Source of the DNA: an uncultured bacterium
GTDB taxonomy: Bacteria > Patescibacteriota > Saccharimonadia > Saccharimonadales > Saccharimonadaceae
Assembly: GCA_903952435.1 (NCBI GenBank)
Contig: CAJBFN010000001.1
Location: forward strand, 104,678-168,677
DNA: 64,000 nt
Direction: 5' to 3'
Shown here piece after piece: positions 6,539 to 24,056 of this stretch; the stretch's first letter is position 1, and every line of letters starts with the position of its first letter. A model generated the notes under the pieces. That model was not told the DNA's origin and made no database searches. It was given only the letters and a program-made list of their open reading frames with translations. The translations under genes and the position numbers were made by a program.

Positions 6539-6544
6539 TATAAT
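6539..6544 (+). promoter_or_regulatory. -10 box for the S66 peptidase gene
   Basis: TATAAT, 6 nt before the ATG at 6551. Leaderless type. Confidence 0.62.
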
Positions 6545-6550
6545 TCTTAT

Positions 6551-7582: not shown

Positions 7583-8326
7583 CTATACCTTAGTAACAAT
7601 TTCTAGCGCAATTTGAAATAGTTTTGCTGAATTTCGTTCGTTCTCTTGCGGGTTTTTGCCGTCGATGTTATCATCGGTGATTAAAAAGCTAGCAAAACTT
7701 ATACTGCGAAACTGTGCAACAGCTAGCAGTGATGCCAGCTCCATATCAACAGCTACGCATCCATTATTCTTCATTGTCTGTAATTTTCCAGCCGTTTCTC
7801 GATACACGGCATCGGTTGTCCAGACTTTGCCGTTTAGAAAAGGTATGCTATTTTCAGAAAATAATTTCTTCATTATATTTATTGAATTATCATTCTGGGC
7901 AACTTCATCGCTTGGTGATAAATAATGATAGCTTACGCCCTCTTCGCGAAATGCAGAATTTGGAATAATAATAGTATTTTTGTTAATTTCTCTGTTTATT
8001 GCACCGCATGTGCCAAACGCGACAATTTTGTTTATACCGCTTGCAATTAGTAGCTCCATGTCTGCAGCCGACATAGACGCACCGCCAGCTCCACTGGCTG
8101 GTGATACCAACAATATATTTTCTTGTTCATGCTGATACATAAGAAAATTATTAAAAACTCTTCCACTGGCATTTTTAGCTGGAAAAACTTCAATATTACC
8201 TTGTTCGCTTACATAATTTTCCCAAACTTCATCATCAAAAATCATTAAAGCTTTTTTGGGGCCGCCGAGAAGGTTAAGATTAGGCGGGTTAAATAAGGCA
8301 TTTTTATCTGGGTCAAAGTTAATCAT
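7583..8326 (-). CDS. Nucleoside phosphorylase (PNP/UDP family)
   Basis: 247 residues with the nucleoside phosphorylase superfamily-1 signatures KIVAFGTCGAIN (phosphate-binding glycine-rich region) near residue 98, VWTTDAVYRET near 160, and CVAVDMELASLLAVAQFR near 185 that contacts the ribose. The enzyme splits nucleosides with phosphate to free base and ribose-1-phosphate, a typical salvage role in auxotrophic Patescibacteria. Whether the base is purine or uracil cannot be fixed. Upstream on the minus strand lie two TATAAT-like boxes and AAAAGGA about 6 nt from the ATG. Confidence 0.85.
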   Translation of the reverse strand: MINFDPDKNALFNPPNLNLLGGPKKALMIFDDEVWENYVSEQGNIEVFPAKNASGRVFNNFLMYQHEQENILLVSPASGAGGASMSAADMELLIASGINKIVAFGTCGAINREINKNTIIIPNSAFREEGVSYHYLSPSDEVAQNDNSINIMKKLFSENSIPFLNGKVWTTDAVYRETAGKLQTMKNNGCVAVDMELASLLAVAQFRSISFASFLITDDNIDGKNPQENERNSAKLFQIALEIVTKV

Positions 8327-8426
8327 TTTTTATCCTTTTTGATTATAAAATTAATTATAACATCATGCACGTCTTATAATATTTGGCATAAGGTTAATTT
8401 GGGCTTTAGTTTATCTACGGCTTTGT

Positions 8427-8432
8427 TATAGT
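8427..8432 (+). promoter_or_regulatory. -10 box for the GNAT gene
   Basis: TATAGT, 7 nt before the ATG at 8440. Leaderless type. Confidence 0.5.
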
Positions 8433-8439
8433 TATAGCT

Positions 8440-8991
8440 ATGAACGATATAATTTCAAAGGCCGGTAGCCTAAAAATAAAACTAACCAAACCAGATGTTA
8501 ATCGTGATGCGCCTTTTGCCTTGGGTTGGTTCGAATCTATTCACGGAAAGCAAACATTATTACTTATGGGTAATGCTGAAAACGAAATAAAACCACCCAC
8601 TCTTGAAGGTGAAAAGAAAACACTTCAAAAATTTATCGAATTAGAAAAATCTAATGAACAGCTGACTTGGATGATTCAGGCTGATAATAAGACAATCGGA
8701 GCTGTATGGATTGAGCTGAAGGATACTGAGTTTGTTAAGTCACCAGCCGTTCATATGATGATAGGTGATCCAGAATATCGAGGTCAGGGTATTGGTAGGG
8801 CTATTATGTTCGAGATGATTAAATATGCAAAAGAAAAATTAAAATCTAGTGTTATATACTCTCGTCATCTCGTAAGTAATAAACCGGTCACAGCATTGCT
8901 AGACTCTTTTAGTTTTATTAATGACGGTAAAAGTTATATTGATAGTAATAATCTTGAATGGCAAAATATTAAATTGACATTTGATATATAG
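8440..8991 (+). CDS. GNAT-family N-acetyltransferase
   Basis: 183 residues with the acetyl-CoA pyrophosphate loop EYRGQGIGRAIM (Q/RxxGxG/A) near residue 110, preceded by VHMMIGDPEYRG. The C-terminal part, VTALLDSFSFINDGK, fits the GNAT beta6-beta7 region. The substrate is unknown. It has an independent leaderless promoter, so it does not look like part of the downstream operon. Confidence 0.82.
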   Translation: MNDIISKAGSLKIKLTKPDVNRDAPFALGWFESIHGKQTLLLMGNAENEIKPPTLEGEKKTLQKFIELEKSNEQLTWMIQADNKTIGAVWIELKDTEFVKSPAVHMMIGDPEYRGQGIGRAIMFEMIKYAKEKLKSSVIYSRHLVSNKPVTALLDSFSFINDGKSYIDSNNLEWQNIKLTFDI

Positions 8992-9018
8992 CAATTCGGC
9001 ATTTAATAGCGTAAATGT

Positions 9019-9024
9019 TATAAT
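9019..9024 (+). promoter_or_regulatory. -10 box opening the NRPS operon
   Basis: TATAAT, 8 nt before the ATG of the DUF2087 gene at 9033. Because downstream genes are 3-34 nt apart or overlapping, this is the best candidate promoter for the whole 14-kb cluster. A further TATAAT at 9295-9300, only 2 nt before the next start codon, is too close to be convincing. Confidence 0.5.
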
Positions 9025-9032
9025 AATAAAAT

Positions 9033-9299
9033 ATGAAGTGTAACCTCTGTAACTTTTTGGATTCTAATGGCCTTATAGAACAATGGCCATCAAAAAGGGC
9101 TAATCAGTTGGAAATTATAAAGTATCTTGCAGATAAATTCCCTATTGGATCAACATATTCCGACAAAGAAATAAATCAAAAACTTAAGGATCTGCATACT
9201 TTTGGCGATTGGGCTATACTTCGTCGCGAATTGTGCGATCTTGGGTATTTTGAACGAGATAGAAATGGCACAATCTATATCAGAGTTGAAAGAGTATAA
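9033..9299 (+). CDS. DUF2087-domain protein, possible cluster regulator
   Basis: 88 residues. From residue 20 onward it matches the DUF2087 pattern: LEIIKYLADKFPIG, YSDKEINQKLKDLH, DWAILRRELCDLGYFERD, then a Gly-Thr-Ile-Tyr ending. This pattern is a winged-helix-like module often fused to HTH regulators. The N-terminal CNLCNF is a CxxC pair that could bind metal. It is the first gene of the probable operon, 3 nt before the HDAC-like gene, so a regulatory role is plausible but unproven. Confidence 0.7.
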   Translation: MKCNLCNFLDSNGLIEQWPSKRANQLEIIKYLADKFPIGSTYSDKEINQKLKDLHTFGDWAILRRELCDLGYFERDRNGTIYIRVERV

Positions 9300-9302
9300 T
9301 AA

Positions 9303-10337
9303 ATGTCTCCAGAAAAAATTGTTTATTATAATAAAGATCACGCAAACCACAAAGGTTGGATTGATAATGAAGGTAAGCCCTGGGATGTCCCCGAAAGACT
9401 TTTTAAGGTAGTTGACGCACTATTAAGTGATGACAGCCTAAATATTGATTGGATGGTTTCGCCAGAGTTTCATAAAGAGACAATGGATCTTATATCAAAA
9501 GTACATTCAGTTGATATGATAAAGGCTATTAGCGACGCAAGCAAGAACGCCACATTGAACATCCCAGGTAAAACTTTCTACGATAAAGATGCTGAAGCTA
9601 ATACATCTCTAATTTACCCAGGGACTTTTGAGCAAGCTATTATGTCCGTCGAATGTGCGGTATCTGCCGCCGACTCATTGATAAATGGCGAGACAAATCT
9701 TGCTATTACTGTCAGTAGGCCACCGGGACATCATGCTGGTAGGGAATTTTATCATGGGTTCTGTTATCTTAATAATGCCGCTGTCGCTGCCGAGGCTATG
9801 AAGAATAACAACAAGAAAGTCGCCATACTGGATATAGATGTTCACCATGGTGATGGCACTCAGGATATTTTTTTAAATGACCCAAATGTCATGTATGTAT
9901 CTTTGCATGCTGACCCGAATTTAGTTATGCCAGGTACTGGATACAGCCATGAAATAGGTGTCGGCGAGGGTCTTGAAAGAACTGTTAATTTACCATTCCC
10001 AATAGGCATCGAGGCAAATGAATATATGAATCTATTAATAAACGCTCAAGAAAAAATAAAAGGGTTTGGCGCAGATTACTTAATCATCGAAGCGGGATTT
10101 GATGGTCATAAAAATGAATATCCTAATCTTCCACCTATTACGCAACTTGGAGATTCTGAATATAGAGAAATAGGGAGACATATTGGCGAACTTAATTTAC
10201 CAAGCTTAGTTGTATTTAGTGGTGGCTACAACCAAGACGTTACCGCTCCTGCTTTTGTTTCTTACATAAAAGGCATGGAAGACTCATTACTTATAGATAG
10301 GCCGATAGTCCATACGACCGACGAATTAATACCCTAA
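9303..10337 (+). CDS. HDAC-like amidohydrolase (acetylpolyamine/histone deacetylase family)
   Basis: 344 residues, complete class II HDAC-like fold. Visible catalytic elements are the tandem His H143-H144 in RPPGHHAG, the zinc ligands D179 and H181 in DIDVHHGDG, the third ligand D267 in EAGFDGH, and the transition-state Tyr309 in SGGYNQ. Bacterial members deacetylate polyamines or small amides. Located 17 nt before the phosphopantetheinyl transferase, it probably acts on an N-acyl group of the NRPS product or an acetylated diamine precursor. The acetyltransferase at the other end of the cluster makes an acetylation/deacetylation pair. The specific substrate is inferred from context only. Confidence 0.88.
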   Translation: MSPEKIVYYNKDHANHKGWIDNEGKPWDVPERLFKVVDALLSDDSLNIDWMVSPEFHKETMDLISKVHSVDMIKAISDASKNATLNIPGKTFYDKDAEANTSLIYPGTFEQAIMSVECAVSAADSLINGETNLAITVSRPPGHHAGREFYHGFCYLNNAAVAAEAMKNNNKKVAILDIDVHHGDGTQDIFLNDPNVMYVSLHADPNLVMPGTGYSHEIGVGEGLERTVNLPFPIGIEANEYMNLLINAQEKIKGFGADYLIIEAGFDGHKNEYPNLPPITQLGDSEYREIGRHIGELNLPSLVVFSGGYNQDVTAPAFVSYIKGMEDSLLIDRPIVHTTDELIP

Positions 10338-10354
10338 CCAAAAGACTTACCAAA

Positions 10355-10939
10355 ATGATTGATATTTATATAGTAGAAAGAGCTAAATTAAAAAACGATT
10401 CTCGTAAAGTTATTCGTCGTATAGTTGAATGTATTCTAAGTTCACGCTTAAACTCAACCAGTCTTATAGGCATGTCATTCGATGAATATGGTAAACCATA
10501 TATCAAGAAAAACTATAGAACAAATTTTAATTATTCTCATTCCAAAAACATAGTAGCTATTTCTGTTGTTGCAGATACGGAAGATATTGGCATTGATACG
10601 GAACCGTTAGACAGGAGCGTTGAGATAAGTAAAATTGCACATAGTGCTTTTTCTGAAAGAGAGCTGTTAAAAATACCTAATGATAGATTTGTAAACGCTT
10701 GGTGTTTAAAAGAAGCGTCGGTGAAAATGGTAGGAAAAGGATTTAGAGAGGCGGATCCGTCAGAGTTTTCCATTGAACAAAATCAAAATAAATTTCTTTT
10801 ACTGCAGGGATTAAGACAAATCGCCTGCGGTTACACGGAGACATGTATTTATCGTGAAGATGTTATCACGATATGTTCATCGAGTAAAATAGAAGGGATA
10901 AATATAATTTTATATAACATAGCTGATACAATATATTAA
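10355..10939 (+). CDS. Sfp-type 4'-phosphopantetheinyl transferase
   Basis: 194 residues. Core motifs are D81 and E83 in IGIDTEPLD (Mg2+/CoA-binding GxD region) and WCLKEASVKMVGKG with W116, K119, E120 and K123 (the WxxKEAxxK signature). It transfers phosphopantetheine from CoA to the carrier-domain serines (Ser525 of the A-T protein, Ser973 of the C-A-T-E protein, Ser452 of the C-T-C protein). At under 200 residues it is shorter than Sfp (about 224) but keeps both lobes. Its presence supports a functional rather than decayed cluster. Confidence 0.9.
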   Translation: MIDIYIVERAKLKNDSRKVIRRIVECILSSRLNSTSLIGMSFDEYGKPYIKKNYRTNFNYSHSKNIVAISVVADTEDIGIDTEPLDRSVEISKIAHSAFSERELLKIPNDRFVNAWCLKEASVKMVGKGFREADPSEFSIEQNQNKFLLLQGLRQIACGYTETCIYREDVITICSSSKIEGINIILYNIADTIY

Positions 10940-10955
10940 CAAGAGAGTTGACTTT

Positions 10956-12734
10956 ATGAGTAAAGATTTTTACGTACTTGGCTATAGTGGTTTAGATGGC
11001 TATCTAAAATATAAGAATAGCAATATTATTAGCCTTTCAGATAGAGAGTCGCTCGTAAGTCAAGGAATGGATGCAGCTGCTGCGCTTTTGAAAAATGGCC
11101 AAATAATTGCCGCCTCAGCAGAAGAACGTTTTGGTACTATAAAACATACAGGTAACTTTCCGATGCATGCTATTAACGCTTGTTTAAATAAGGCGGGTAT
11201 TAAGATATCTGATATTAGTTGCTTTGCTCATAATTTTAATTATGAACCATATAAAGAACTATTTTTTCTGAATGATTATTCTAAAAATTTATTTGATTCA
11301 ATACTCAGCGATAAGGCCCAGATCGATTTATTTAAATTAAATTACAATATAGATGTTAATGATAAATTCTTCGGCTTCGACCACCATATGTGCCATGCCG
11401 CATATGCGTTTGAAACAAGTGGGTATGAAGCGTCGCTAGTTATCATCGCAGATGGTTTAGGCGAATTTAATAGTATAAGCGTTTATAGTGGTGATAAAAT
11501 TCAAGGCTTAAAACTGCTAAAAACATATGGGCCATCAAGTTCACTGGGAATTTTATATTCTGCTGCAACCGATTATCTAGGGTTTCTTACAAACTCAGAT
11601 GAGTATAAGATAATGGGCTTAGCTGCGTATGGAAACAAGACTGTATATAAAAAGCTTTTTGACGAGATTGTTGTGCTTTCTGATAATGGTAGAATTGAAA
11701 TAAAAAATTTAGTTCCACAAAAAATCAATAAACCAGAAGAACGAGAGACCTATGTGTATTTTAAGAGTTGGCTATCTCAATATATATTTAAAGAAAGAGA
11801 CCCAAACGCTCCAGTCGAGCAGAAGCACAAAGACTTCGCGGCAGCCTTGCAAGAAAAAATCAATGAAGCAGTTCTGCATTTAGTTCGTCATTGGAGCCAT
11901 ACAACTGGTTTAAATAGTTTATGCATGGCTGGAGGTGTTGCGTTAAATTGTGTCGCAAATGAGCGCATTGCAAAATCAGGTTTGGTAAAAAGATTTTATG
12001 TAGCTCCAGCATCATCAGATGACGGGACTTCACTTGGTGCAGCTCTAATAGCTATGCGAAATCGTGGGATATCTTTGAGTAAAAAACATTTTCTTGACAT
12101 GCCTTTTTATGGCCCATCTATCGCAGAAGGTATCATAGATTATAGACTGCCAACTGAATTATCTGTTGAAAAACTTAAAGACGGCAAACTTATAGAAATC
12201 GTTGCTGATGCACTTGTGGATAATAAAATAGTTGCGTGGGCACAGGGGAATATGGAATTTGGGCCACGAGCTCTAGGGCATAGAAGCATATTAGCGATTC
12301 CATGTGATGCTAAAATGCGCGAAAGATTAAATATAGTCACAAAACAACGAGAAAGCTTTAGACCGTTTGCGCCAATCGTGAAAAAAGAATCTATAAATAA
12401 ATATTTTGAAACATATGATGGCGTTGTATATAAACATATGTTAGTAAATACCAAAGTACGAGAGAAATATCGTTCTAAACTCCAAGCCGTGATCCACATC
12501 GATGGTACTTCTAGAGCACAAGCAGTTGATAAAAAAGACTTACCATTATTATGGAAGCTTCTCGATGAAATCGAGCGACGAACTACAATTCCAGTACTTC
12601 TCAATACATCATTTAATTTAAAATCTATGCCAATCGTATGTTATAAAAAGGATGCAATAGAATCGTATTTAAATTCAGATATTGATTTGCTAGTTATTAA
12701 CAACGAAGTAATACGTAAGAGGCAAAAAAAGTGA
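10956..12734 (+). CDS. NodU/CmcH-family carbamoyltransferase
   Basis: 592 residues, two-domain O-carbamoyltransferase. The N-terminal Kae1-like domain has the metal-binding H143/H144/H147 cluster (FDHHMCHAAYAF), IADGLGEFNS, and MAGGVALNCVANERI near residue 325. The C-terminal YrdC-like domain carries AQGNMEFGPRALGHRS from about 429 and ends LLNTSFNLKSMPIV. Known members (TobZ, CmcH, NodU) make carbamoyl-adenylate from carbamoyl phosphate and ATP, then carbamoylate a hydroxyl (or amine) of a natural product. It starts 16 nt after the PPTase and its TGA overlaps the GTG of the next gene. Confidence 0.92.
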   Translation: MSKDFYVLGYSGLDGYLKYKNSNIISLSDRESLVSQGMDAAAALLKNGQIIAASAEERFGTIKHTGNFPMHAINACLNKAGIKISDISCFAHNFNYEPYKELFFLNDYSKNLFDSILSDKAQIDLFKLNYNIDVNDKFFGFDHHMCHAAYAFETSGYEASLVIIADGLGEFNSISVYSGDKIQGLKLLKTYGPSSSLGILYSAATDYLGFLTNSDEYKIMGLAAYGNKTVYKKLFDEIVVLSDNGRIEIKNLVPQKINKPEERETYVYFKSWLSQYIFKERDPNAPVEQKHKDFAAALQEKINEAVLHLVRHWSHTTGLNSLCMAGGVALNCVANERIAKSGLVKRFYVAPASSDDGTSLGAALIAMRNRGISLSKKHFLDMPFYGPSIAEGIIDYRLPTELSVEKLKDGKLIEIVADALVDNKIVAWAQGNMEFGPRALGHRSILAIPCDAKMRERLNIVTKQRESFRPFAPIVKKESINKYFETYDGVVYKHMLVNTKVREKYRSKLQAVIHIDGTSRAQAVDKKDLPLLWKLLDEIERRTTIPVLLNTSFNLKSMPIVCYKKDAIESYLNSDIDLLVINNEVIRKRQKK

Positions 12735-14458
12735 TAGCAAAACAATTACAAATAATCGTTAATTCAAATCCCAATAAAATATCCATAGATGATTGCAATG
12801 GAGGAGAGATTAGCTATAGGCAATTATGGGAATTAGTTTGTACTTTTTCTGCAGCAATAGATGATTTTGCTCAAGACGATAAATATATTGGCTTAATAGC
12901 CGACCAAGATGCATACGCCGTTATCGCTCTAGTTTCGACGATATTAAATGGTAGGACTATTATTCCTATAGATCCTAGGCTAAGCGCATTAGAGATTGAA
13001 GAAATATTGTCACCTTTTACTTGCAAGATTATATGCCGAAATATAGACACCCGTATTTTTAGTAAGCGCTTTGTCGCTTTAGAATGTGAAGATCTGATAT
13101 CTAGAGAGTCTACTAACTATTGCTTTAAAGATGAAGATACCGATGCATATATTATCCATACATCGGGTACTACTGGCAAACCAAAACCAGTTCTTGCCAA
13201 GCAGGGAGCCTTGTTGCATGTTGTGACTGAGTTAATTTCAAGATATTATATTGACAATAATTCCAATGTTCTGCAATTCGCTTATATGAGCTTTGACTCG
13301 TCTTTAGCAGAAATCTTTAGTACATTTCTTTCTGGTGGCACCTTGATAATTCCAGGCTGCCAATTGAGAAATGATGCATATAGCGTTCTTGAGACTTTAC
13401 TAATGCGTAAAGCTATATCTGTAGCAACGTTACCTCCGTCATTTGCCCTGGGCTGTAAGACTACCGCGCTATCAAATTTAGATACATTGATTTTAGCTGG
13501 TGAAGAATGCCCTATAAATCTAGCAAATAGTTTATATAAAAAAGTAAAGCACCTAATAAACGCCTATGGACCCACTGAGTCAATTATATGTGCGACTACC
13601 TATGAGATAAAGTCCCTACAAAATATTTGCAGAGTTCCAATTGGTACGCCTCTAAACGGCATGCGAATCGAGATCGCTAATATAAAAGAAAATTGTAGCG
13701 ATACGCCAGGATCCGGTGAGATGTTATTATTCAGTGACTATTTAGCACAAGGTTATCCAGGTCACAAGAGAGAAACATCAGAAAAATTCAAAGTCAATCC
13801 AAAAACGAATGCTATTTACTATACAACCGGAGATATTGGCCACATAAATGATGATGGCAACTACGAGTTTTTGGGAAGAATAGATAATCAGATAAAAATC
13901 AATGGCCAACGGATTGAGCTAGAAAGTATTGAATCTAACATTAAAAGAATCACCGGCATTACCGAGCTGATTGTAATTTATGACGGCCATCTATATTGCG
14001 CATACAAAAATAATGGAGCAGCCCAATCCTTTGATATTAGGGGTTCATTGTCTGGTAAAATGTCTCTTCATACAATTCCAAATGTATTTATTTTGGTTGA
14101 TTCAATCCTGCTTGATGGTAATGGTAAAATAAATCGTCGCGATATGCTTAATAAAATAAAAGAACAATTGCGTAGTACAAAAACTATAAATAAAACCGAT
14201 AATAATTTTTGTAATGAAATGATTATTCTCTGGGAAGCAACAATATCTGCATCTAATTCAATGATTAACGATAATTCAGACTTCTTTGAAGTTGGCGGTG
14301 ATTCGTTATCTGCTCTAAGACTCGTCAAGGCTATAAACGACAAATATTTAATAAATATTAAATTAGCAGAAATCCTACAGGGCACCGTAACCCCTTTAAA
14401 AATGAGTTCAATAGTAGAGAATAAGCTTATCTTGACGAGAACATTGAATGATAACTAA
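12731..14458 (+). CDS. NRPS adenylation-thiolation (A-T) protein
   Basis: 575 residues: A domain (about 1-490) and carrier domain (about 500-565). Core motifs are HTSGTTGKPKP (A3) near 142, FDSSLAEIF (A4), NAYGPTES (A5), YYTTGDIG (A7), GRIDNQIKINGQRIE (A8) and GNGKINRR (A10), with carrier VGGDSLSAL (Ser525). Aligned by eye to GrsA, the pocket code reads D-S-A-T-I-A-A-I-C. This is close to the GrsA Phe code except Trp239 to Ala, suggesting an aromatic or bulky side chain. With no C domain it is probably the initiation module. GTG start overlapping the upstream TGA. Confidence 0.92.
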   Translation: MIAKQLQIIVNSNPNKISIDDCNGGEISYRQLWELVCTFSAAIDDFAQDDKYIGLIADQDAYAVIALVSTILNGRTIIPIDPRLSALEIEEILSPFTCKIICRNIDTRIFSKRFVALECEDLISRESTNYCFKDEDTDAYIIHTSGTTGKPKPVLAKQGALLHVVTELISRYYIDNNSNVLQFAYMSFDSSLAEIFSTFLSGGTLIIPGCQLRNDAYSVLETLLMRKAISVATLPPSFALGCKTTALSNLDTLILAGEECPINLANSLYKKVKHLINAYGPTESIICATTYEIKSLQNICRVPIGTPLNGMRIEIANIKENCSDTPGSGEMLLFSDYLAQGYPGHKRETSEKFKVNPKTNAIYYTTGDIGHINDDGNYEFLGRIDNQIKINGQRIELESIESNIKRITGITELIVIYDGHLYCAYKNNGAAQSFDIRGSLSGKMSLHTIPNVFILVDSILLDGNGKINRRDMLNKIKEQLRSTKTINKTDNNFCNEMIILWEATISASNSMINDNSDFFEVGGDSLSALRLVKAINDKYLINIKLAEILQGTVTPLKMSSIVENKLILTRTLNDN

Positions 14459-17400
14459 TTTAACACCAATAGAACAAGCATTCTGGTATCAACACAAGCT
14501 TAACCCTAAAAGTGACAGCAATAACATAGTGCATAAGATTATGTTTAGTCGGCCGTTATCTAAGGTTGATCTTGATTGTTGCCTTGAGAATATGTGCAAT
14601 AAATATCCCATTCTGAAATCTAGATTTATTGACATAGACGGGACGCCCGTAAGAAAAGCTATTGGGCGCGGTTACGATATCGAGATATCAGCCGACCCGT
14701 TATCATCTATAGACAAAGCCCAAAAACAATTTGATCTTGAAAATGATAATTTGTTACGCTGCGTGCTACTCGATAGTAAAGTATTGTATGTGACAGTACC
14801 TCATATAATATTTGACGAAATTTCTTGGAATATATTCGTTAAAGATCTTTGCAAATACATCAAAGGAGATAATAATAAAACATTTGAAATCACCAAAGAT
14901 ACTAATTATATTCCATCAGATTTAAATACGGACATACGAATATATTGGAAGAACGAGTTAATAGGCGCCAGTGATCGAGTTGGTTTGATGAGCAATAATA
15001 GAATAATCTCAGATGGTGACAAGGACCTCTCGTTTTTCAAGCACAAGATAGATAAAGAGACGAGCAGGAAGTTAAAACAGCTTGCGATTTCACTACATTC
15101 ATCGATGAATAGTATGTTGATGACGCTGTTTTGTGTCACTTTAAATAAAACCACCTCAGACAATGACATAGTAATTGGAACGCCCGTTACAATTCGAGAC
15201 GAACAATCAGAAGATCAAATAGGTTGCTATATAAATGTATTACCTTGTAGATTTATTATTAAAAATGAAGATCAAATAAATAATTTTATAAGTAAGAAAT
15301 CAATGGACATGTGGAGTCATCTAGACATGCGCAACTTCTCACTACCAGAACTTTTGCGCGACCTGAAACTTGATCAAAATGACGAACTTAGGGGTTTGTA
15401 TAATGTGATATTTGAGTATGTCCCACAAAAACTAGAGCAAGATAAATTAATCGTTTCTGATGATATCCTACCTAATTTAGCCGTTAAATTAGACTTAATG
15501 GTAAGCCTTTTTGAATCATTAAACGGTACAGATATTTACGTCGAATATCGTAATACTCAATATTCCAAAGAATATATTGAAAATATTATTAAACGATTTA
15601 TTAACGTCTGCGATCACACGATAACTAATCCTGACTCAAAAATTAAGGACATATCAATATTATTTAGAGGCGAGGATAAAACTCTAATTGAGATAGGATG
15701 TGGCGATAAACGAGTCATTAAAGCCCCATATATTTGGAATAGATTCCAGACTAATGCATTTGCTAACCACGATAGTATTGCAGTAAAAAGTAATTACAAA
15801 ACGTTAACTTATTCTGAGCTTGAATATCTTTCTGCATCTTATGCAGATAAACTAGAAGAGTTAGGTGCTAGCGAAGGTTCGATTATTGGAGTATATATGA
15901 ATCGTTCGGTTGAATATGTCGCAACCATGCTAGCCATCTGGTCGCTTGGAGCCATTTATGTACCGCTCGATATTAATCAGCCAAGCGAGCGCATAACAAG
16001 TATGATTACCCAAGCCAATATAGGTTTTATTGTAACCAATTCGGATAATCGAAAAAGTATTAATGTATCTGTTCCATTTTATATTATAGATAGTCCACTA
16101 ACGTTAGAATTGAAAAAAAATAGGAAAATCACGCGGAAGTATGAACCAACAGCAAATGACGTCGCATATATAATCTTTACTTCAGGGTCTACTGGATTAC
16201 CGAAGGGGGTTATGATAAAACACCAAGGATTTATGAATCATCTAGAGATAATGATCCATGAACTAGGCCTCAATAAATCCAGTGTTGTCGCTCAGACGGC
16301 CGAGGTATCATTCGATATATCAGTATGGCAACTAATATGCCCACTTCTTACTGGCGGTGCAGTGCGTATATGCAATAAGGATGACGTAACTAGTGTCCAA
16401 AAAATATACAATATTATTAATAAAGATAGAATATCCGTATTAGAAATAGTCCCATCGTTATTGTCTGTTTATCTCGAAGCTGAACAATCCAATTTGGTAG
16501 ATAGAAAATGCTTAAAAAACACAATAATTATCACTACTGGCGAGGCTATTAGCCCTTCAATTGTAAAGCAATGGTTTAATATCTATCAAAATAAACCTCT
16601 CTTAAACGCATACGGCCCAGCTGAGGCGTCTGATGATACCCATTTTTACCATATTAAGACAGATTCTAGCATTGAACAGACTATACCGATTGGACACCCG
16701 TTATTTAACATTGAAACCTACATCCTTAATAATGATATGCAATTATGCCCGATTGGGATAATAGGGGAAATACATATTGGCGGAATCGCTGTTGCTGATG
16801 GATATATTAACGACAAAAAACTTACAGATAAGGTTTTTATAGATAATCCTTTTTTAAATAACAAGAGCAAAATGTACAAAACTGGTGATTATGGAATGTG
16901 GCGCAATGACGGCGCACTAAACTTTTTAGGCAGGAAGGACTATCAGGTAAAGATAAACGGACAACGGCTTGAACTTGGTGAAATAGAAAACAAGATTCTT
17001 AATCTTGATTATGTAAAAGATGCAGCGGTTATATTTGAAGACACGCCTAGCGGTAAGCGTCTTCGAGGATATGTTACCTTCAAAGACAAAGCCCATGGCA
17101 ATGATGATATAAAACGAGATCTTGAAAACAAACTACCTAGTTTCATGATTCCAAGAAGCATAGAAATAATTGATAATATCCCAAGAAATTCTAACGGAAA
17201 ACTTGATCGAAAATATTTAGAGAGTTTAAGAGATACGGTAGTAAAAGACGAATGCCTTTATCAAATCAATAACACGACGCTCAATAATATTATAAGAATA
17301 TGGTCAGACAATATTGGGCGTTCAATTAAACCAGACACAAATTATTTTGATGCTGGCGGCGATTCTCTACTTAGTGTAAAAATAGTTAATAACCTGAACA

Positions 17401-18731
17401 AAGCAGGAGTCCCCGTAAGTGTTAGGGATATATTAATGTATCAGACACCAGAAGAACTGGCAGCCACCGTTGAAGATAGGCAACTGGAGCAATTTAATCC
17501 CAATATGAAGCTTAGCGGTGATACGCCCATACAGCTTGATTATCTAGAAGAATCAGGTAAGTATAGAGAATATGGAGAGATTCAGGCAGCTTTATTACGT
17601 TTTAGGATTAATAAAAAAGATATCAATTTTGAAAATGTTATCTCAAGAATGTTACAAACGCATTCGTCCCTTAATCCGAAGGATCTTAAGAACATACTCA
17701 AAAGAGATGACAGTCTGGCTATATTATCAGTAGAGCAGATTGAGAATATGGTTGAATTAATGCGTAAAGATGTCAATATTGAGCATCGACCAGCTACCTT
17801 GCGTTGGACTATATCGGATGGGATTATATATTTATTAATAGTAACACATCATTTTGTGATAGATTATTATTCATGGAAAATCATATATGATGATATCTCA
17901 TTATTATTAAACGGCATAACTCCAGAAATACATAATGATCAAATTATTAAGATATGGCTTGGAAATCGACTAAATAATTTGAGCGTGAGGAACCAAAGTA
18001 GTGATGAGTTTAAAAATAACTCAAATACAAATATCATTCACACTAAAAATAAACAGCTGATATTAGCGAGTGATACTAAAATTATTTATCACAATTTTTC
18101 TGTAGGCTATGACATAGAACTGCTATTATCAGAGAATGATATGGATATTAATAGTTTCGTCTGTTATTCAATAGCTAAAGCATATATCCAGATAACTGGT
18201 GATTCTATGTTCGAATACAATATTGAGGCCTCAATTCGACAACTCGATAAGTCTAATATACTAAGTAAAGAGATCGGATGGATGACTTATAAATACCCCA
18301 GAGTAATTAATCATAACGACAGTGCTGCGGAAGTTTATAATGACCTGTCTAATAGTATAAATAGCGGAGTAGATTATGGGCTAATGAAATACAATATTGA
18401 CTATGACGAAAGCCCAAGAATAACCAACCCATTATGGACTATCAATTACATAGGAAAAACACTAAACGAGAATGATGATCTTAAAATTATAAAAACAAAA
18501 TCCTATAAGGAAGTACCTTATATTGAACTAGACATTATCAATAGTGGGGATCATATTACCTTTGAATGTATGACAAATACCAATCTAAGCGATAGATTTT
18601 TTGGTGATTTATGGGAAAAAATGGATAATATCATGCATACTATTTTGAACGACCTACGCACGCCCAATATAGCTATAAATCTAAGTAGCAATCGCGAAAA
18701 GAATATTTTAGATAGGATCAAAAATGGATAA
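14448..18731 (+). CDS. NRPS C-A-T-E module
   Basis: 1427 residues. Condensation domain (about 1-420) has a degenerate active site, P118-H119-I-I-F-D123-E124 instead of HHxxxDG. The A domain (about 430-925) has FTSGSTGLPKG, FDISVWQL, NAYGPAEA and YKTGDYG, with pocket code D-I-W-E-I-T-A-D-D by eye. The three acidic residues E278/D330/D331 fit a cationic residue such as 2,4-diaminobutyrate. Then come a T domain (AGGDSLLSV, Ser973) and an E domain (about 1020-1420) with H1134-H1135-x3-D1139, IGWMTYKYP and LMKYNID motifs, so the residue is likely converted to the D form. ATG overlaps the previous stop by 11 nt. Confidence 0.93.
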   Translation: MITNLTPIEQAFWYQHKLNPKSDSNNIVHKIMFSRPLSKVDLDCCLENMCNKYPILKSRFIDIDGTPVRKAIGRGYDIEISADPLSSIDKAQKQFDLENDNLLRCVLLDSKVLYVTVPHIIFDEISWNIFVKDLCKYIKGDNNKTFEITKDTNYIPSDLNTDIRIYWKNELIGASDRVGLMSNNRIISDGDKDLSFFKHKIDKETSRKLKQLAISLHSSMNSMLMTLFCVTLNKTTSDNDIVIGTPVTIRDEQSEDQIGCYINVLPCRFIIKNEDQINNFISKKSMDMWSHLDMRNFSLPELLRDLKLDQNDELRGLYNVIFEYVPQKLEQDKLIVSDDILPNLAVKLDLMVSLFESLNGTDIYVEYRNTQYSKEYIENIIKRFINVCDHTITNPDSKIKDISILFRGEDKTLIEIGCGDKRVIKAPYIWNRFQTNAFANHDSIAVKSNYKTLTYSELEYLSASYADKLEELGASEGSIIGVYMNRSVEYVATMLAIWSLGAIYVPLDINQPSERITSMITQANIGFIVTNSDNRKSINVSVPFYIIDSPLTLELKKNRKITRKYEPTANDVAYIIFTSGSTGLPKGVMIKHQGFMNHLEIMIHELGLNKSSVVAQTAEVSFDISVWQLICPLLTGGAVRICNKDDVTSVQKIYNIINKDRISVLEIVPSLLSVYLEAEQSNLVDRKCLKNTIIITTGEAISPSIVKQWFNIYQNKPLLNAYGPAEASDDTHFYHIKTDSSIEQTIPIGHPLFNIETYILNNDMQLCPIGIIGEIHIGGIAVADGYINDKKLTDKVFIDNPFLNNKSKMYKTGDYGMWRNDGALNFLGRKDYQVKINGQRLELGEIENKILNLDYVKDAAVIFEDTPSGKRLRGYVTFKDKAHGNDDIKRDLENKLPSFMIPRSIEIIDNIPRNSNGKLDRKYLESLRDTVVKDECLYQINNTTLNNIIRIWSDNIGRSIKPDTNYFDAGGDSLLSVKIVNNLNKAGVPVSVRDILMYQTPEELAATVEDRQLEQFNPNMKLSGDTPIQLDYLEESGKYREYGEIQAALLRFRINKKDINFENVISRMLQTHSSLNPKDLKNILKRDDSLAILSVEQIENMVELMRKDVNIEHRPATLRWTISDGIIYLLIVTHHFVIDYYSWKIIYDDISLLLNGITPEIHNDQIIKIWLGNRLNNLSVRNQSSDEFKNNSNTNIIHTKNKQLILASDTKIIYHNFSVGYDIELLLSENDMDINSFVCYSIAKAYIQITGDSMFEYNIEASIRQLDKSNILSKEIGWMTYKYPRVINHNDSAAEVYNDLSNSINSGVDYGLMKYNIDYDESPRITNPLWTINYIGKTLNENDDLKIIKTKSYKEVPYIELDIINSGDHITFECMTNTNLSDRFFGDLWEKMDNIMHTILNDLRTPNIAINLSSNREKNILDRIKNG

Positions 18732-21321
18732 CAATATAAACATAGAAAAAGTACTGCCAATATTGCCAGTACAGAGTGGCATGATAGCTGATAGCGCAGC
18801 TGGCACCGACGGCTATTACATTGAGCAGATTTGCATACAATTAAAACCAAGTATAAACGACAAAATATTATTATCGCGTATTAAGAGAATCGTTGAATCA
18901 AATGAAATCCTTAGAACAGTTTTTGACTGGTCGGAAGACAACGCAATACAGGTCATTATATCAGGGATAGAGCCTATCACAGCCATAATGTCCATAAATT
19001 CAGATATAGAACTAGACGCTATATTAAATAAAGAAAGACAAACTTTAAAACCGATTAATATAGCTCCGCCGATCCGCTTTGCTATTGTTCATAATAAGGC
19101 AATCCAATATTTAGTCGTTACTTATCACCATGTACTTTTAGATGGCCCTAGTGTAAACAGTCTACTTGATATTCTATGCACAGATGGCGGTTACTCAAAG
19201 AACTCAACAGAACAATATATTAAATGGCAAAATGATAACACGTCGAGGCAACAACACATAGGAACATGGCAGGGATTATTAGACGGATTAATACCAGAGG
19301 ACGGAATATTACCGATATCTCGTGACAATAAGGGTAAGTTAGCTATATCAAAAATTATGGTAGATATTGATTTTCGAGATAAATTGATTAAAAAAACAAA
19401 ATCAATGAGCCTTACTCCAGCAGTTTGCATGCAAGTTCTCTGGGGGCAATGGTTAGCTTCTTATTTTTCCAAAAATAAGTTACTGTATGGGCTAGTAGTT
19501 AGTACTCGCATCAATGGGATCAACGATCGGGCAATTGGCCCGTATATAGCGACTATACCATGTCTTGATAAATTAATGATCGGTAGTAGTTTTGTCGAAG
19601 TTAGTAAAAAGAAGCAAGAAGATGTTCTTGCAATCGATATAGCTAAACATATTTCACTAAGGAATATTACACAAAATGTATCGCCATATACTGGACTATT
19701 TGATGCAATTCTTAACATAACGACACATCCCGTAGTAAGCAAAAAATATTATGAGGTAATAAATACTTATGAGAATACAGGATATAAGCTTAGCGCTGAT
19801 ATTATAATTACCGACAATATCGAAATATTGTTTTCTTCATCTTGTCTAAAGAATAATCAGCTTAATGATGCTATACGGTCATTTTCGGAATATTGTTCTG
19901 TGCAGATAGAACAAGAAAATATAATCGACATAGATCAAAAATATAAGATACATAAAATTAATCATATAAATGATAAAAAAACCATTAAAGATATCGACGT
20001 ATTAGTTGCCCAATCTATTAATATAGAGCCAAAAGTTGTCGATATGGAGATGTCATTCATCGAAAATGGCGGCGACTCAATAAATGCCCTTCGTCTGGTA
20101 AATTTATTACAAGCAAGAGACATAGCCTGTTCTGTTGGTGATATCCTAAGAGCTAAGTCACTAAATAACATAACTGATAAAAATGCTGATAATGTTGGCA
20201 TTCAGACACAGAAAAAAAATAACAGCAAAGTAGAATACGAGGTAGACGTATTAAATATTCCATTTTCAACACAGCGTATAATCGACGCTTACAAAACGGG
20301 TTACGGACAGGACTATCACGAACAAACTGCGTTTAAGCTTGCATCCGACCTTGATGTTAACATAATGAAGCTGGCATTATATGAACTTGGCATGGAAATA
20401 CCAACTTTACGCTTGAAGTACTCAGAAGGGCATATAAACAAACAGAAACTAACCAATAAGCCCCGCATAAGCCTAAAGAATATTAAAAGAAATACAACTT
20501 TTGATGATTTTATCAAAAGAGTCTCCGATGATGATATGAAGCATGAAATTAATATTAACCATGGAGATTTATTTAGAGTAGTAATGCAATCATATAAAAA
20601 TGGCTATTACTTCCTCATAGGTTTTTCAGCACTGGTAACCGACGGATGGTCTTTTTCAAAATTATTATCGAGGTTATTCGAAATTTATGGAGATATATCA
20701 AAAAATTGCCATACACGTCGTGTGGATGTATCTTATATTAATTACTGTAAACAATATCAAACCGACAACACTCAAATAGAGCAAGATCTACCTATAAAAA
20801 AATTATCATATTCATTTGATGTATCTCAAAAAAAATATTATATAAATAAGGCACAAACTAATAAGATAATTAGTAACTGTAAATCTAAGAATCTAACTAT
20901 TAATGATTATTTATTAAAACAAGCCATATCTATTCTTACCGGTCGAGATTTTTCAAATCTTGAAATTTATGAAAATGGTCGCAACAATTTCAGTCTTTAT
21001 GATTCTGTGGGGCCGTATAGTCATTTATTAACAAAAACAATAAATAACGTAATATCAAATAGGGCATATTTTGTTTTTGAGAATTACCCAAAAGATGATG
21101 AAAATCGCTTAAGAAATAATATGATAGAGAATTTTAAAGAAAACGGCAATTGGCGACGCACATTATTGCCACCAGCTACAATATTAGGCTTATCGTTTGA
21201 AACAACAGAAGACGAGATTATTGTGCTAATCGCGGCTCGTAGAGGAAGTGACATTAAAATTAATGATTACTGGGAGGACTTAATTAATATTATAAATAAG
21301 GAGGATAAATATGGATTTTGA
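18724..21321 (+). CDS. NRPS C-T-C protein without A or TE domain
   Basis: 865 residues. The first C domain (about 1-420) has an intact YHHVLLDG around residues 134-140. The carrier domain has ENGGDSINAL (Ser452). A second condensation-like domain (about 515-865) has SALVTDGWS at 635-643 in place of HHxxxDGWS, so both histidines are gone. There is no A domain, so the carrier must be loaded in trans, perhaps by the A-T protein or an enzyme elsewhere. There is no thioesterase or reductase either; the terminal C-like domain may release the product, or its loss of His may make it a docking or scaffold domain. Start overlaps the previous stop by 8 nt. Confidence 0.88.
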   Translation: MDNNINIEKVLPILPVQSGMIADSAAGTDGYYIEQICIQLKPSINDKILLSRIKRIVESNEILRTVFDWSEDNAIQVIISGIEPITAIMSINSDIELDAILNKERQTLKPINIAPPIRFAIVHNKAIQYLVVTYHHVLLDGPSVNSLLDILCTDGGYSKNSTEQYIKWQNDNTSRQQHIGTWQGLLDGLIPEDGILPISRDNKGKLAISKIMVDIDFRDKLIKKTKSMSLTPAVCMQVLWGQWLASYFSKNKLLYGLVVSTRINGINDRAIGPYIATIPCLDKLMIGSSFVEVSKKKQEDVLAIDIAKHISLRNITQNVSPYTGLFDAILNITTHPVVSKKYYEVINTYENTGYKLSADIIITDNIEILFSSSCLKNNQLNDAIRSFSEYCSVQIEQENIIDIDQKYKIHKINHINDKKTIKDIDVLVAQSINIEPKVVDMEMSFIENGGDSINALRLVNLLQARDIACSVGDILRAKSLNNITDKNADNVGIQTQKKNNSKVEYEVDVLNIPFSTQRIIDAYKTGYGQDYHEQTAFKLASDLDVNIMKLALYELGMEIPTLRLKYSEGHINKQKLTNKPRISLKNIKRNTTFDDFIKRVSDDDMKHEININHGDLFRVVMQSYKNGYYFLIGFSALVTDGWSFSKLLSRLFEIYGDISKNCHTRRVDVSYINYCKQYQTDNTQIEQDLPIKKLSYSFDVSQKKYYINKAQTNKIISNCKSKNLTINDYLLKQAISILTGRDFSNLEIYENGRNNFSLYDSVGPYSHLLTKTINNVISNRAYFVFENYPKDDENRLRNNMIENFKENGNWRRTLLPPATILGLSFETTEDEIIVLIAARRGSDIKINDYWEDLINIINKEDKYGF

Positions 21322-22558
21322 GATAATAGAAGATAATGAGTCGGTCGTTAGATCATACTCAAGATCGTTTCCCGTAGTGTTCACACATTCTACTGGATCT
21401 TTGATTTTTGACAAAAACGATAATGAGTATATAGATTTCTTTTCAGGAGCTGGCGGCCTTAATTATGGTCATAATAGCCCAACAATTAAACAGTCAATGG
21501 TTGACTACATAAACAAAGATGGCATCATACATGGTCTAGATATGGCGACCGAAGCAAAGATAGATTTTATATCTACTTTTCAAAAGCATATCCTTAAACC
21601 AAGAAATCTTGACTATAAGATACAATTCACAAGCCCAGCTGGAGCTAGCGCGGTTGAGGCTGCCTTAAAACTGGCAAGGCTCGTAAAAAAGAAACCAAAC
21701 ATAATAGCCTTCACTCATTCATTTCATGGTGTCAGTCTCGGCGCGTTGGCCGTAACCTCAAATTCATGGTTCAGAAGTGCCGCCGGCACTGAATTAAGTA
21801 ATGTGACTTATATCCCTTATGACGGCTATATTGATAACTTTGATTCTTTAGATTTATTCGAGAAAATGCTAGATGATCCAAGCGGAGGTATTGATCAATC
21901 CGCCGCAGTTATAGTTGAAACTATACAGGGTGAGGGCGGAGTCAATATTGCAAGTATTGGATGGCTACGAAAGCTAAGAAAAATTACTCTAGATCGTAAA
22001 ATACTCCTAATTATTGATGATATTCAAGCAGGCTGTGGCCGTAGTGGCGATTTTTTTAGCTTCGAACAATCCGGTATAAATCCAGACCTAGTCGTCCTAT
22101 CAAAATCAATTTCAGCATCAGGGCTTCCGATGTCTTTATTGCTCATCAAGCCAGAGTATGACATATGGAAGCCAGGCCAACACAGTGGAACATTCAGGGG
22201 AAATAACTTGGCTTTTGTTTCTGCGGCAAAAGCTATCACCGAATTTTGGACGAACGATAAACTATCGCTAGAAGTAAGACGCAAAGAAAAGATAATTGAC
22301 GAACAACTTAATAAGATTGCTAAAATGTACCCAGAAAAAATAGCCGCGGTTCGCGGTAGAGGCATGTTTTATGGCCTGGCCTTTAAAGAATATGAGGATG
22401 CTAAAAAAGTCGCCAATATATCATTTTCTAATCACCTAATAATTGAGACTTGTGGCAGCCAAGACGAAGTACTAAAACTTATGCCAGCGCTTACAATTGA
22501 TGATGATTTATTAATAAACGGGCTAGATATCCTTGCTAATAGTATTGCCGGGCTTTAA
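21311..22558 (+). CDS. EctB-type diaminobutyrate:2-oxoglutarate aminotransferase
   Basis: 415-residue class III PLP aminotransferase. The PLP lysine is K265 in VLSKSISASGLPMS, close to the EctB consensus SKSxSGxGLP. Other matches to the EctB subgroup are FFSGAGGLNYGHN near residue 36, FTSPAGASAVEAALKLAR, HSFHGVSLGALA, VETIQGEGGVN and IIDDIQAGCGRSG. EctB enzymes convert L-aspartate-4-semialdehyde to L-2,4-diaminobutyrate with glutamate. Ectoine synthase is absent here, so the diaminobutyrate most likely feeds the NRPS, matching the acidic A-domain pocket. Translationally coupled to the C-T-C gene by an 11-nt overlap. Confidence 0.9.
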   Translation: MDFEIIEDNESVVRSYSRSFPVVFTHSTGSLIFDKNDNEYIDFFSGAGGLNYGHNSPTIKQSMVDYINKDGIIHGLDMATEAKIDFISTFQKHILKPRNLDYKIQFTSPAGASAVEAALKLARLVKKKPNIIAFTHSFHGVSLGALAVTSNSWFRSAAGTELSNVTYIPYDGYIDNFDSLDLFEKMLDDPSGGIDQSAAVIVETIQGEGGVNIASIGWLRKLRKITLDRKILLIIDDIQAGCGRSGDFFSFEQSGINPDLVVLSKSISASGLPMSLLLIKPEYDIWKPGQHSGTFRGNNLAFVSAAKAITEFWTNDKLSLEVRRKEKIIDEQLNKIAKMYPEKIAAVRGRGMFYGLAFKEYEDAKKVANISFSNHLIIETCGSQDEVLKLMPALTIDDDLLINGLDILANSIAGL

Positions 22559-22577
22559 TATATAAACAATAACATAC

Positions 22578-22583
22578 AGGAGA
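22578..22583 (+). promoter_or_regulatory. Shine-Dalgarno sequence of the cluster GNAT
   Basis: AGGAGA, 9 nt before the ATG at 22593. Notable because the preceding cluster genes have no clear Shine-Dalgarno sequence and rely on overlap. An ATG at 22587 opens only a seven-codon reading frame. Confidence 0.55.
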
Positions 22584-22592
22584 AAATGCGTA

Positions 22593-23096
22593 ATGATCAC
22601 TATATATGACGACCTAAAACATTCAAATGAAGTTAAAAGTTTATTGATAGACTTTCAAAAATATTTGCACAGTATTGATACTACAAATGAGATAAAAGAA
22701 TTAAAAAATGAAGAAGATGCAAAAAGGTATCTAACAAAGATGTCATCTGACTGCAAAGAGATGAACGGAAAAATGTTAGTATCAATCGAAAATGAAAAAA
22801 TAGTTGGATTTATCCAGGGTGTTGTTATTACGAAAGACGATCCTGAAGATATTATGTACGCCACAACTCATGATGCATCAAAACAAGGATGGATTGGCGT
22901 TTTGTATATAACTCCAGAAATGCGCGGCAAAGGACTAGGTACAGAGCTAATAGATAGTATTAAATCATACTTTATCGAACAAGGCTGTAAAACTATGCGA
23001 TTATTAGTAGCGTCTGATAATAAGCCTACTATAAAAACTTATCATAATTATGGGTTTATCGATGGCGACGTCGAGATGTCTTTAAAGATATCTTGA
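22593..23096 (+). CDS. GNAT N-acetyltransferase, last gene of the NRPS cluster
   Basis: 167 residues with VLYITPEMRGKGLGTELID, the acetyl-CoA loop (RGKGLGT), near residue 112 and the C-terminal NKPTIKTYHNYGFIDGDVEMSL typical of GNAT small-molecule acetyltransferases. It lies 34 nt after the EctB-type gene. EctA (diaminobutyrate acetyltransferase) is also a GNAT, but this protein looks like a generic member, so EctA activity is not claimed. Candidate roles are tailoring or self-protection by N-acetylation, opposite to the HDAC-like deacetylase that begins the cluster. Confidence 0.82.
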   Translation: MITIYDDLKHSNEVKSLLIDFQKYLHSIDTTNEIKELKNEEDAKRYLTKMSSDCKEMNGKMLVSIENEKIVGFIQGVVITKDDPEDIMYATTHDASKQGWIGVLYITPEMRGKGLGTELIDSIKSYFIEQGCKTMRLLVASDNKPTIKTYHNYGFIDGDVEMSLKIS

Positions 23097-23214
23097 ATTG
23101 GTTGAATTTGGGTTAAAAAAGCTACCTAGCCATATGTTATAAATTAAGCATTGCACCTTGCGATGTGGAGATTATTTGAGGGGATAATTATAACTAATTA
23201 ACTAATTATTAAAT

Positions 23215-23220
23215 TATACT
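23215..23220 (+). promoter_or_regulatory. -10 box for the HExxH protein gene
   Basis: TATACT, 7 nt before the ATG at 23228. Leaderless type; separates this gene from the NRPS operon. Confidence 0.5.
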
Positions 23221-23227
23221 TATTATC

Positions 23228-23947
23228 ATGAAATACGATTATAAAATCATTTACGATATCAAAAAGGATATGTGGAACTGGCGCGGGTCACTAGAGGATC
23301 ATCTGACTGATGATTGGTGTTTGAGCAATATTAAAAAATATGGCAACAAAATTGATCAAAAGATTGCTGATCAAATTTTGTGTCTAAATAAATCAGAGAC
23401 CGAAGCTATCTTGCGGCCATATTTACTGTCGCTTAAAAATAATCCAAATAGTAAGCTCAACAAATTTATTAAATTGGCCGAGGACGAATTTGCGGACAAA
23501 TATGTTGACGCGTGCAAGGCGCTCGAGCGTGTTACGAAACGCCCGATGATGTCAGATGAATTTATTTTTTACGTTACGACATTCCCGCGTATGACTGTAT
23601 TTTTTGATGAGCACATAATTTTTATGTATGATTCGATAGAAGGGGTTTGGGGTATGCCGATAGATGGCTTTTTGCACGAAGCGCTGCACTTCCAGTTTTA
23701 TTATTATTGGAGATTGGATAAAAAGTCGCCAGTTTCAAAACTTAGCGAAGATGAATTTTTCTATCTGAAAGAATCTTTGACAGTGATATTGAATGAAGAA
23801 CTAAGACCAATAATAACTTTGCCAGATTGTAGTTATTCGTCGATGCAGCCATTCCGTGATATCTTGCACGAGCATTGGCGAAAACATCATGATTTTGATA
23901 GGTTGATTGAGCTTGGATTAGAAAAATTGCCTGATTATATATCGTAG
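23228..23947 (+). CDS. Hypothetical protein with HExxH zinc motif
   Basis: 239 residues, not recognised as a named family. FLHEALHFQFYY around residue 155 contains HEALH, the HExxH zinc-metallopeptidase motif, followed about 34 residues later by LTVILNEELRP, where a Glu could be the third ligand. No signal peptide or membrane segment. The rest is acidic/basic helical sequence with several Trp. It may be a cytoplasmic metallopeptidase-like protein. It follows the NRPS cluster but has its own promoter, so a functional link is unproven. Confidence 0.55.
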   Translation: MKYDYKIIYDIKKDMWNWRGSLEDHLTDDWCLSNIKKYGNKIDQKIADQILCLNKSETEAILRPYLLSLKNNPNSKLNKFIKLAEDEFADKYVDACKALERVTKRPMMSDEFIFYVTTFPRMTVFFDEHIIFMYDSIEGVWGMPIDGFLHEALHFQFYYYWRLDKKSPVSKLSEDEFFYLKESLTVILNEELRPIITLPDCSYSSMQPFRDILHEHWRKHHDFDRLIELGLEKLPDYIS

Positions 23948-24056
23948 GCTGGTTATTATATCTTGTGATGTGGCAGGAAGGGGATTTGATGGGGGGGTGA
24001 TATATATCTGTATATAAATTAATCTACAGCCACTATTCTTTTGACTGTTGATTATA

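Follow-up and report, generated by a model that had tools for sequence, protein, structure and literature searches.

An accessory island in a Saccharibacteria genome carries an unbroken nonribosomal peptide synthetase cluster, predicted to make a short carbamoylated peptide with D-2,4-diaminobutyrate

RESULTS

Gene content of the locus

The window analyzed here is a 64,000-base stretch (contig C1, bases 104678-168677) of the genome of an uncultured member of the Saccharibacteria, a lineage of the candidate phyla radiation (CPR); the genome comprises 686,464 bases in 11 contigs and is 97.9% complete. Positions 9033-23096 of the window hold a nonribosomal peptide synthetase (NRPS) cluster of nine open reading frames (ORFs), all on a single strand and without internal stops, with intergenic gaps of -11 to +34 bases. 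This agrees with a first-pass annotation, made from the letters of the window, that had described nine co-oriented genes with overlaps or very short gaps. The gene contents named there were also supported, as curated Pfam cut-offs were exceeded for DUF2087, Hist_deacetyl, ACPS, Carbam_trans_N/C, AMP-binding, PP-binding, Condensation and Aminotran_3, and TIGR02407 identified the aminotransferase; the epimerization (E) domain, treated below, was not called by Pfam. The span itself probably needs to be extended by one gene. We count the GNAT gene at 8440-8991 into the cluster because a 49% homologue sits beside the related cluster of G103, a genome from another genus of the same family. Adenylation, carrier and condensation domains are abbreviated A, T and C.

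8440-8991, + strand: GNAT acetyltransferase, probable first cluster gene (PF00583; the homologue adjoining the G103 cluster is in two frames; 41 bases upstream of the DUF2087 gene)
9033-9299, + strand: DUF2087 protein, possibly regulatory (PF09860, 76.7 bits; 41% homologue in G103)
9303-10337, + strand: zinc amidohydrolase resembling histone deacetylases (HDAC-like; PF00850, 207.7 bits; 58% homologue in G103)
10355-10939, + strand: 4'-phosphopantetheinyl transferase (PPTase; PF01648, 39.2 bits, over cut-off; GID and W..KEA motifs)
10956-12734, + strand: NodU/TobZ-type carbamoyltransferase (PF02543 and PF16861)
12731-14458, + strand: NRPS module 1, A1-T1 (PF00501, 133 bits; PF00550, 35.2 bits)
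14448-18731, + strand: NRPS module 2, C1-A2-T2-E (PF00668, PF00501, PF13193, PF00550)
18724-21321, + strand: NRPS module 3, C2-T3-C3, without an A domain; C3 without the catalytic His
21311-22558, + strand: EctB-type L-2,4-diaminobutyrate aminotransferase (TIGR02407; 64% homologue on L019, a locus described below)
22593-23096, + strand: GNAT acetyltransferase, last cluster gene (PF00583, 61.4 bits; 50% homologue directly upstream of the G103 NRPS)

Homologous clusters in other genomes

A search with the C-T-C protein found 13 proteins. A profile search also gave 13 (P0001, P0003-P0012, P0014 and P0015), all with at least 724 bits, the next NRPS listed having 343; P0002 of the protein search was absent from it. 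The C-T-C protein P0001 was 92% identical; its contig, of 397,520 bases, is named Candidatus Saccharibacteria, and a 97% identical carbamoyltransferase (P0108) lies on a contig of the same size and also of that name. In P0014 and P0015, the C-A-T-E and C-T-C parts are joined in one chain, which supports the module order. The contig of P0012 measures 828,487 bases, a length compatible with a CPR chromosome.

A scan of GTDB 220, in which records near our own genome may be left out, confirmed 11 loci. The closest, L019, lies on a contig labelled Candidatus Uhrbacteria, a label that we consider probable, and is collinear with the window (carbamoyltransferase 63%, cut by the contig end; A-T 47%; C-A-T-E 38%; C-T-C 40%; EctB 64%). 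L020 is the G103 contig, and the other nine loci, in Pyrinomonadaceae, actinobacteria and cyanobacteria, showed 19-28% identity, most over part of the query. The G103 cluster encodes an A-T-C-A-T-E protein in one chain, a C-T-C protein, a PPTase, an HDAC-like protein, a GNAT and a DUF2087 protein, and additionally has an FAD oxidoreductase and a recombinase gene. The ends of the G103 contig match their own bin (0.79 and 0.81) and the NRPS part does not (0.37), as expected of an island. The recombinase gene (PF07508; L013:18163-19140) is a possible mover of this G103 island. The search for the block in other CPR genomes, proposed at first pass, thus returned a Saccharibacteria sister, the Uhrbacteria-labelled L019 and the divergent G103.

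The cluster family was encountered at low frequency in samples of genomes drawn from the family, the order and the phylum, which overlap. PF00668 was matched in 2 of 199 genomes of the family draw (our own and G103) and in 2 of 379 genomes of the phylum draw at E 0.001, where our own genome alone was over the cut-off and the other match was a fragment with stops. With the C-T-C profile, 2 of 392 genomes of the order draw were positive, one with a full-length match and the second with a carrier-domain match alone, as was 1 of 23 genomes in the family of the Uhrbacteria-labelled genome. A carrier-domain match in another genus of the family (G054:C1:628013-628225, L075) lies inside a 1026-aa frame and perhaps belongs to another thiotemplate enzyme.

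Catalytic motifs and substrate pockets

Decay of the core domains, a concern raised at first pass, was not seen: Pfam domains score over cut-off and the core NRPS motifs are retained in the window, except in C3 and for some changes at the C1 motif. The GGDS carrier site is present in all three T domains, including that of module 3, and the PPTase, assigned by PF01648 and its motifs, is a candidate for arming them. The C1 motif reads PHIIFDE, in which the second His and the Asp are kept and the first His and the Gly are changed. An E domain in the C-A-T-E protein is suggested by the motif HHFVIDYYSW in the region that follows T2, and by a PF00668 match, below cut-off, to the corresponding part of the Uhrbacteria-labelled protein; HHxxxDxYSW is found in five of the six aligned sequences, with NH in G103. 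The second His of C3 is lost in all 14 rows of the C-T-C alignment and in all six sequences of the motif alignment. A structure model of the C-T-C protein (mean pLDDT 63, best in the last domain) gives C3 a condensation fold.

The pocket residues are DSATIAAICK in A1 and DIWEITADDK in A2. The latter string is identical in all five complete A2 domains (window, L019, G103, P0014 and P0015), and it is unchanged in G103 although the C-T-C partner there is only 21% identical. In the numbering that we take to be that of GrsA, the A2 pocket holds Glu278, Asp330 and Asp331, and because of these residues A2 likely loads diaminobutyrate. A look-up in open-licence papers of the A1 and A2 codes and of the string that we assume to be the diaminobutyrate code gave no match; the one literature match was for a string that we take to be the GrsA code.

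The aminotransferase scored 612.7 bits against the ectoine_ectB equivalog TIGR02407 (cut-off 552.2), and its L019 counterpart was also over the cut-off (608.7). The LSKS motif is present, and its lysine presumably carries pyridoxal phosphate. Unlike in ectoine synthesis, the cluster has no ectoine synthase, neither GNAT matched EctA models and the genome gave no match for aspartate-semialdehyde dehydrogenase. The HDAC-like protein has GHHA, DVHHG, GFD and GGY motifs, to which we ascribe the zinc ligands and the catalytic His and Tyr. Its solved relatives are HDAC6 (184.9 bits over two stretches) and acetylpolyamine amidohydrolase (149.7 bits), and it likely removes an N-acyl group.

The carbamoyltransferase resembles the NodU/TobZ/NovN/GdmN enzymes in having both Pfam domains and in its matches to solved enzymes (NovN 314, GdmN 304 and TobZ 206 bits), but belongs to a separate clade. 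In a midpoint-rooted tree in which the query was placed with 66 homologues, from 120 listed of 493 matches, the window enzyme, P0108 (Saccharibacteria) and P0135 (Uhrbacteria) fell in a fully supported clade (100/100) of 29 rows, whose stem measures 0.6 changes per site. The majority of this clade has no name. Several of its members appear to be tied to C-T-C relatives, as equal contig sizes (27,324; 17,813; 12,251) suggest. The Met that replaces His before the DAAA motif was considered as damage and this was rejected, since all eight clade members displayed have Met; four carbamoyltransferases outside the clade, read by eye, have one Met, two Leu and one His at this position.

Genomic setting

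The cluster belongs to an accessory island whose site in the Saccharibacteria chromosome is variable. The island, its conserved neighbors and one further gene of interest are as follows.

1885-2271, - strand: left conserved anchor gene (73-77% homologues beside FolD in 7/7 congeners compared)
2272-27878, no strand: accessory island, 25.6 kb, holding the cluster (its flanking genes are near-neighbors in congeners)
6551-7537, + strand: MccF-like peptidase S66, candidate self-immunity gene, putatively associated with the cluster (PF02016/PF17676)
27879-30047, + strand: right conserved anchor gene, histidine kinase (HisKA and HATPase_c; 43-63% homologues at the same place in 7/7 congeners compared)

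Among the 28 genomes of the genus, FolD (10-831) was found in 27 and UvrD (38021-40129) in all, with 73-81% identity where the match was full length. The two genes share a contig in 12 congeners, ~9 to 42 kb apart, and the distance in the window is 38 kb (start to start). Seven of these FolD-UvrD intervals, whole or nearly so, were compared. In all seven, the anchor homologues lie ~0.14-3.2 kb apart between match ends, against 25.6 kb in the window. None of 20 ORFs tested from 2406 to 26762 had a match in the seven intervals at E 1e-8, although other parts of these genomes could still carry them. The aminotransferase at 24057-25178 was found in our own genome alone among the 28, and so were condensation domains among the 18 genus members of the family draw.

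The GC content of 9033-23096 was 0.350, below that of every one of the 116 overlapping 14-kb windows taken from the contig beyond the island; the whole island had 0.352 versus 0.388 for the remainder of contig C1. The tetranucleotide correlation of 9033-23096 (0.559) was near the low end of the range of 0.519-0.872 in 59 windows. This low GC content, together with the low-end correlation, points to horizontal gain rather than a bad join. The comparison of composition with the flanks, suggested at first pass, showed a somewhat foreign stretch, in keeping with an island gained horizontally. A search for direct repeats inside 800 bases at either edge of the island gave short, imperfect ones only; repeats between the edges were not compared. 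Carriage by phage was rejected: the phage collection gave no match, and not one of 14 stretches in viral_contigs could be confirmed. Carriage by a plasmid was rejected as well: 118 plasmid records matched, none over 80% of the query, with 24.5-25.7% identity in the eight rows displayed.

Known RNA families were not found in 8000-24000 at E 0.1, and promoter and terminator scans were not clearly above shuffles (81 versus 77.5 and 10 versus 7.2, respectively). The closest solved relatives of the S66 peptidase were Lmo1638 (378 bits) and an MccF-like protein (376 bits), and proteins named MccF scored up to 166 bits. This gene ends a run of enzymes at 2406-7537, which also includes a beta-lactamase-fold protein, NUDIX, NADAR, a choline-kinase-like protein (below the Pfam cut-off) and GrpB; the run resembles drug-modifying or repair enzymes and has no match in the seven congener intervals. 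After the cluster, on the same strand, a 239-aa protein (23228-23947) has a metallopeptidase-like HEALH stretch and no Pfam, NCBIfam or PDB match. At 25236-27874, a PaaK/F390-synthetase-like AMP ligase (weakly matched in NCBIfam and not at all in Pfam) adjoins a ThiF-family E1-like protein, and the pair may form a second small pathway in the variable region. The ThiF-family protein had 268 bits to NF005901, below cut-off, and a 38.5% homologue at the same site in one congener (G162). PADLOC, run on 10 proteins, gave weak matches alone, namely to the neighboring ThiF (E1-E2 models) and NADAR genes.

Beyond the right anchor, two minus-strand DUF11 proteins (31053-33793) both match one single region beside the histidine kinase in all seven congeners, and may be a duplication in the window. 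An ORF at 35540-36229 aligns only to positions 1-177 of the 379-position phosphoglycerate kinase model (PF00162), is shortened or broken, and adjoins triose-phosphate isomerase. In five congeners (G080, G101, G203, G205 and G207), the UvrD match is in two pieces within one frame of ~950-1076 aa, as if an intein-like insert lay in the helicase domain.

DISCUSSION

We read the locus as an unbroken NRPS cluster on a Saccharibacteria accessory island, with a short carbamoylated peptide containing D-2,4-diaminobutyrate as its predicted product, and give this reading a probability of roughly 0.7. The first-pass guess of a cationic, carbamoylated product with a D residue is consistent with the predicted parts. 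In the proposed pathway, the PPTase would arm the three carrier domains and A1-T1 would load the first residue, which is aromatic-like by its pocket. EctB would make the L-2,4-diaminobutyrate that A2 likely loads, after which C1 would join residues 1 and 2 and the E domain would convert residue 2 to the D form. C2 would hand the chain to T3. Because module 3 has no A domain, T3 would have to be charged in trans, as is described for CmnI in capreomycin synthesis in the accessible text of PMC12400406. Having lost its catalytic His, C3 more likely serves as a platform for docking or release than for condensation. Carbamoylation would be the task of the carbamoyltransferase, and a protective acetyl group would be put on by the GNATs and removed by the HDAC-like enzyme. 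The target of the product would be the host or its neighbors.

Parts of this scheme have parallels in known systems. The capreomycin and viomycin synthetases (CmnI/VioI) likewise contain an A-less module that needs in-trans charging by the A domain of another module, and use diamino-acid monomers; however, CmnI keeps HHxxxD, whereas C2-T3-C3 has a second, His-less C domain. The carbamoylation enzyme of capreomycin and viomycin belongs to another family. By its modeled fold, C3 would resemble the X domain of glycopeptide synthetases (teicoplanin, 4tx2; 6m7l), a C fold with a lost catalytic His that recruits a tailoring enzyme in those systems.

Several observations weigh against this interpretation. 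The cluster is rare in the CPR genomes sampled. C1 has PH for HH and DE for DG, although the second His is kept and PH is also found in L019 and P0014, and the diaminobutyrate assignment of A2 follows code rules that we presume to hold. No release domain (thioesterase or reductase, usual but not defining for an NRPS) was found among the 30 ORFs scanned, including no thioesterase among their Pfam matches. As the first-pass annotation had remarked, no exporter is visible among the island genes scanned, a scan that did not cover 7583-8326 or the remaining genome. Our own genome had no match for aspartate-semialdehyde dehydrogenase (PF02774) at E 1, nor for CarA and the ornithine and aspartate transcarbamylase (OTCase/ATCase) families, with all 14 controls positive in each case; carbamate kinase was not searched. 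Because Asd, CarA and OTCase matches are missing from a 97.9% complete genome, two predicted precursors have no source that was found. Either aspartate semialdehyde and carbamoyl phosphate are supplied by the host, as may be the case, or there is a route such as carbamate kinase, another EctB substrate, or genes in the missing 2%. The description 'complete-looking' given at first pass is overstated, because release, loading of the third residue, export and two precursor routes are unaccounted for; C3 also lacks its catalytic His.

Features of the relatives also count against this reading. On L019, EctB is followed by a succinyl-CoA-ligase-like pair and no GNAT, and the upstream part is cut; its non-NRPS part fits the bin poorly, with a tetranucleotide correlation of 0.40 to seven other contigs, which among themselves have 0.51-0.76, so that the Uhrbacteria label is not certain. 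In G103, both EctB and the first GNAT are broken up into several frames, no carbamoyltransferase was found on the 46,357-base contig, and the motifs of C1 (HHIVLSA) and E (NHLVMD) are odd. The G103 copy may be decaying or may differ in product.

Three other explanations were considered. That the cluster arose by misassembly, or that its contig comes from a free-living NRPS producer and was mis-binned, would account for a GC content below that of every contig window outside the island and for the low-end tetranucleotide correlation. We nevertheless find it extremely improbable: core genus genes, among them FolD and UvrD, stand in conserved order on both flanks, the sister cluster is on an independent 397-kb Saccharibacteria contig, and the C-T-C profile sets this family (down to 724 bits) well apart from the next NRPS listed (343 bits). 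Synteny and the independent contigs rule out a chimera in our view. The first-pass proposals that the contig is not mis-binned and that an NRPS cluster is really present in a Patescibacteria genome are upheld by these flanks, by the other occurrences and by the largely kept core motifs. It is unlikely, too, that the island is a recent horizontal passenger, unused and bound to decay. Its absence from the same site in all seven congeners compared, its foreign-leaning composition, the precursor routes that were not found and the frame-split genes of G103 would suit such a passenger, but all ORFs are open and most motifs kept, the diverged sister keeps both proteins near full length, and relatives that are otherwise very divergent share the same A2 pocket residues.

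Slightly more credible, though still improbable, is a genuine NRPS whose product is a metal chelator or other non-effector, with A2 loading another basic residue (ornithine, lysine or arginine). An acidic A2 pocket does not single out diaminobutyrate, and no source of the usual EctB substrate was found in the genome. On the other side, the EctB gene adjoins the C-T-C gene with an 11-base overlap, the pair is kept on L019, and typical chelator-building enzymes are not among the families found in the cluster. Relative to these alternatives, we favor the carbamoylated D-diaminobutyrate peptide. A wider proposal is tentative and, on balance, doubtful: that CPR bacteria have an NRPS line of their own (carbamoyltransferase, A-T, C-A-T-E, C-T-C with a His-less last domain, and EctB) with a frozen A2 pocket, which moves on islands between CPR chromosomes and draws aspartate semialdehyde and carbamoyl phosphate from the host to make a carbamoylated D-diaminobutyrate peptide that is used on it.

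Biosynthetic clusters reported from CPR comprise ribosomally synthesized and post-translationally modified peptides (RiPPs), with linear azole-containing peptides (LAPs), lantipeptides and terpenes, in the accessible parts of PMC7298704 and PMC12153355; the latter counts 21 clusters, 16 of them RiPP-related. These are likewise specialized metabolism in very small genomes, but those named in these texts are RiPP or terpene clusters and not NRPS. As far as their available text goes, PMC8694215 reports no NRPS or polyketide synthase (PKS) in two Saccharibacteria, PMC11613949 no clusters in its Patescibacteria metagenome-assembled genomes (MAGs), and PMC9927545 an antibacterial cluster in a Patescibacteria MAG, NRPS not being named. 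Azetidine-carboxylate synthases are described in CPR (PMC11794875), and MAGs of groups called CPR (FCPU426, JAJYCY01), with others, hold 2-19 clusters according to the accessible part of PMC12690461. The available portions of PMC12684718, PMC10640626 and PMC7494679 contain nothing on CPR NRPS, and no description of a CPR NRPS cluster was found in the part of the open-licence PubMed Central (PMC) literature that was consulted.

Saccharibacteria and other CPR are treated as metabolic minimalists, in which an NRPS cluster is unexpected. A 14-kb assembly line is ~2% of a 0.69-Mb genome, a large investment that suggests a role in interaction with the host or with neighbors. The cluster is a concrete, expressible system for asking what chemistry epibionts direct at other cells.

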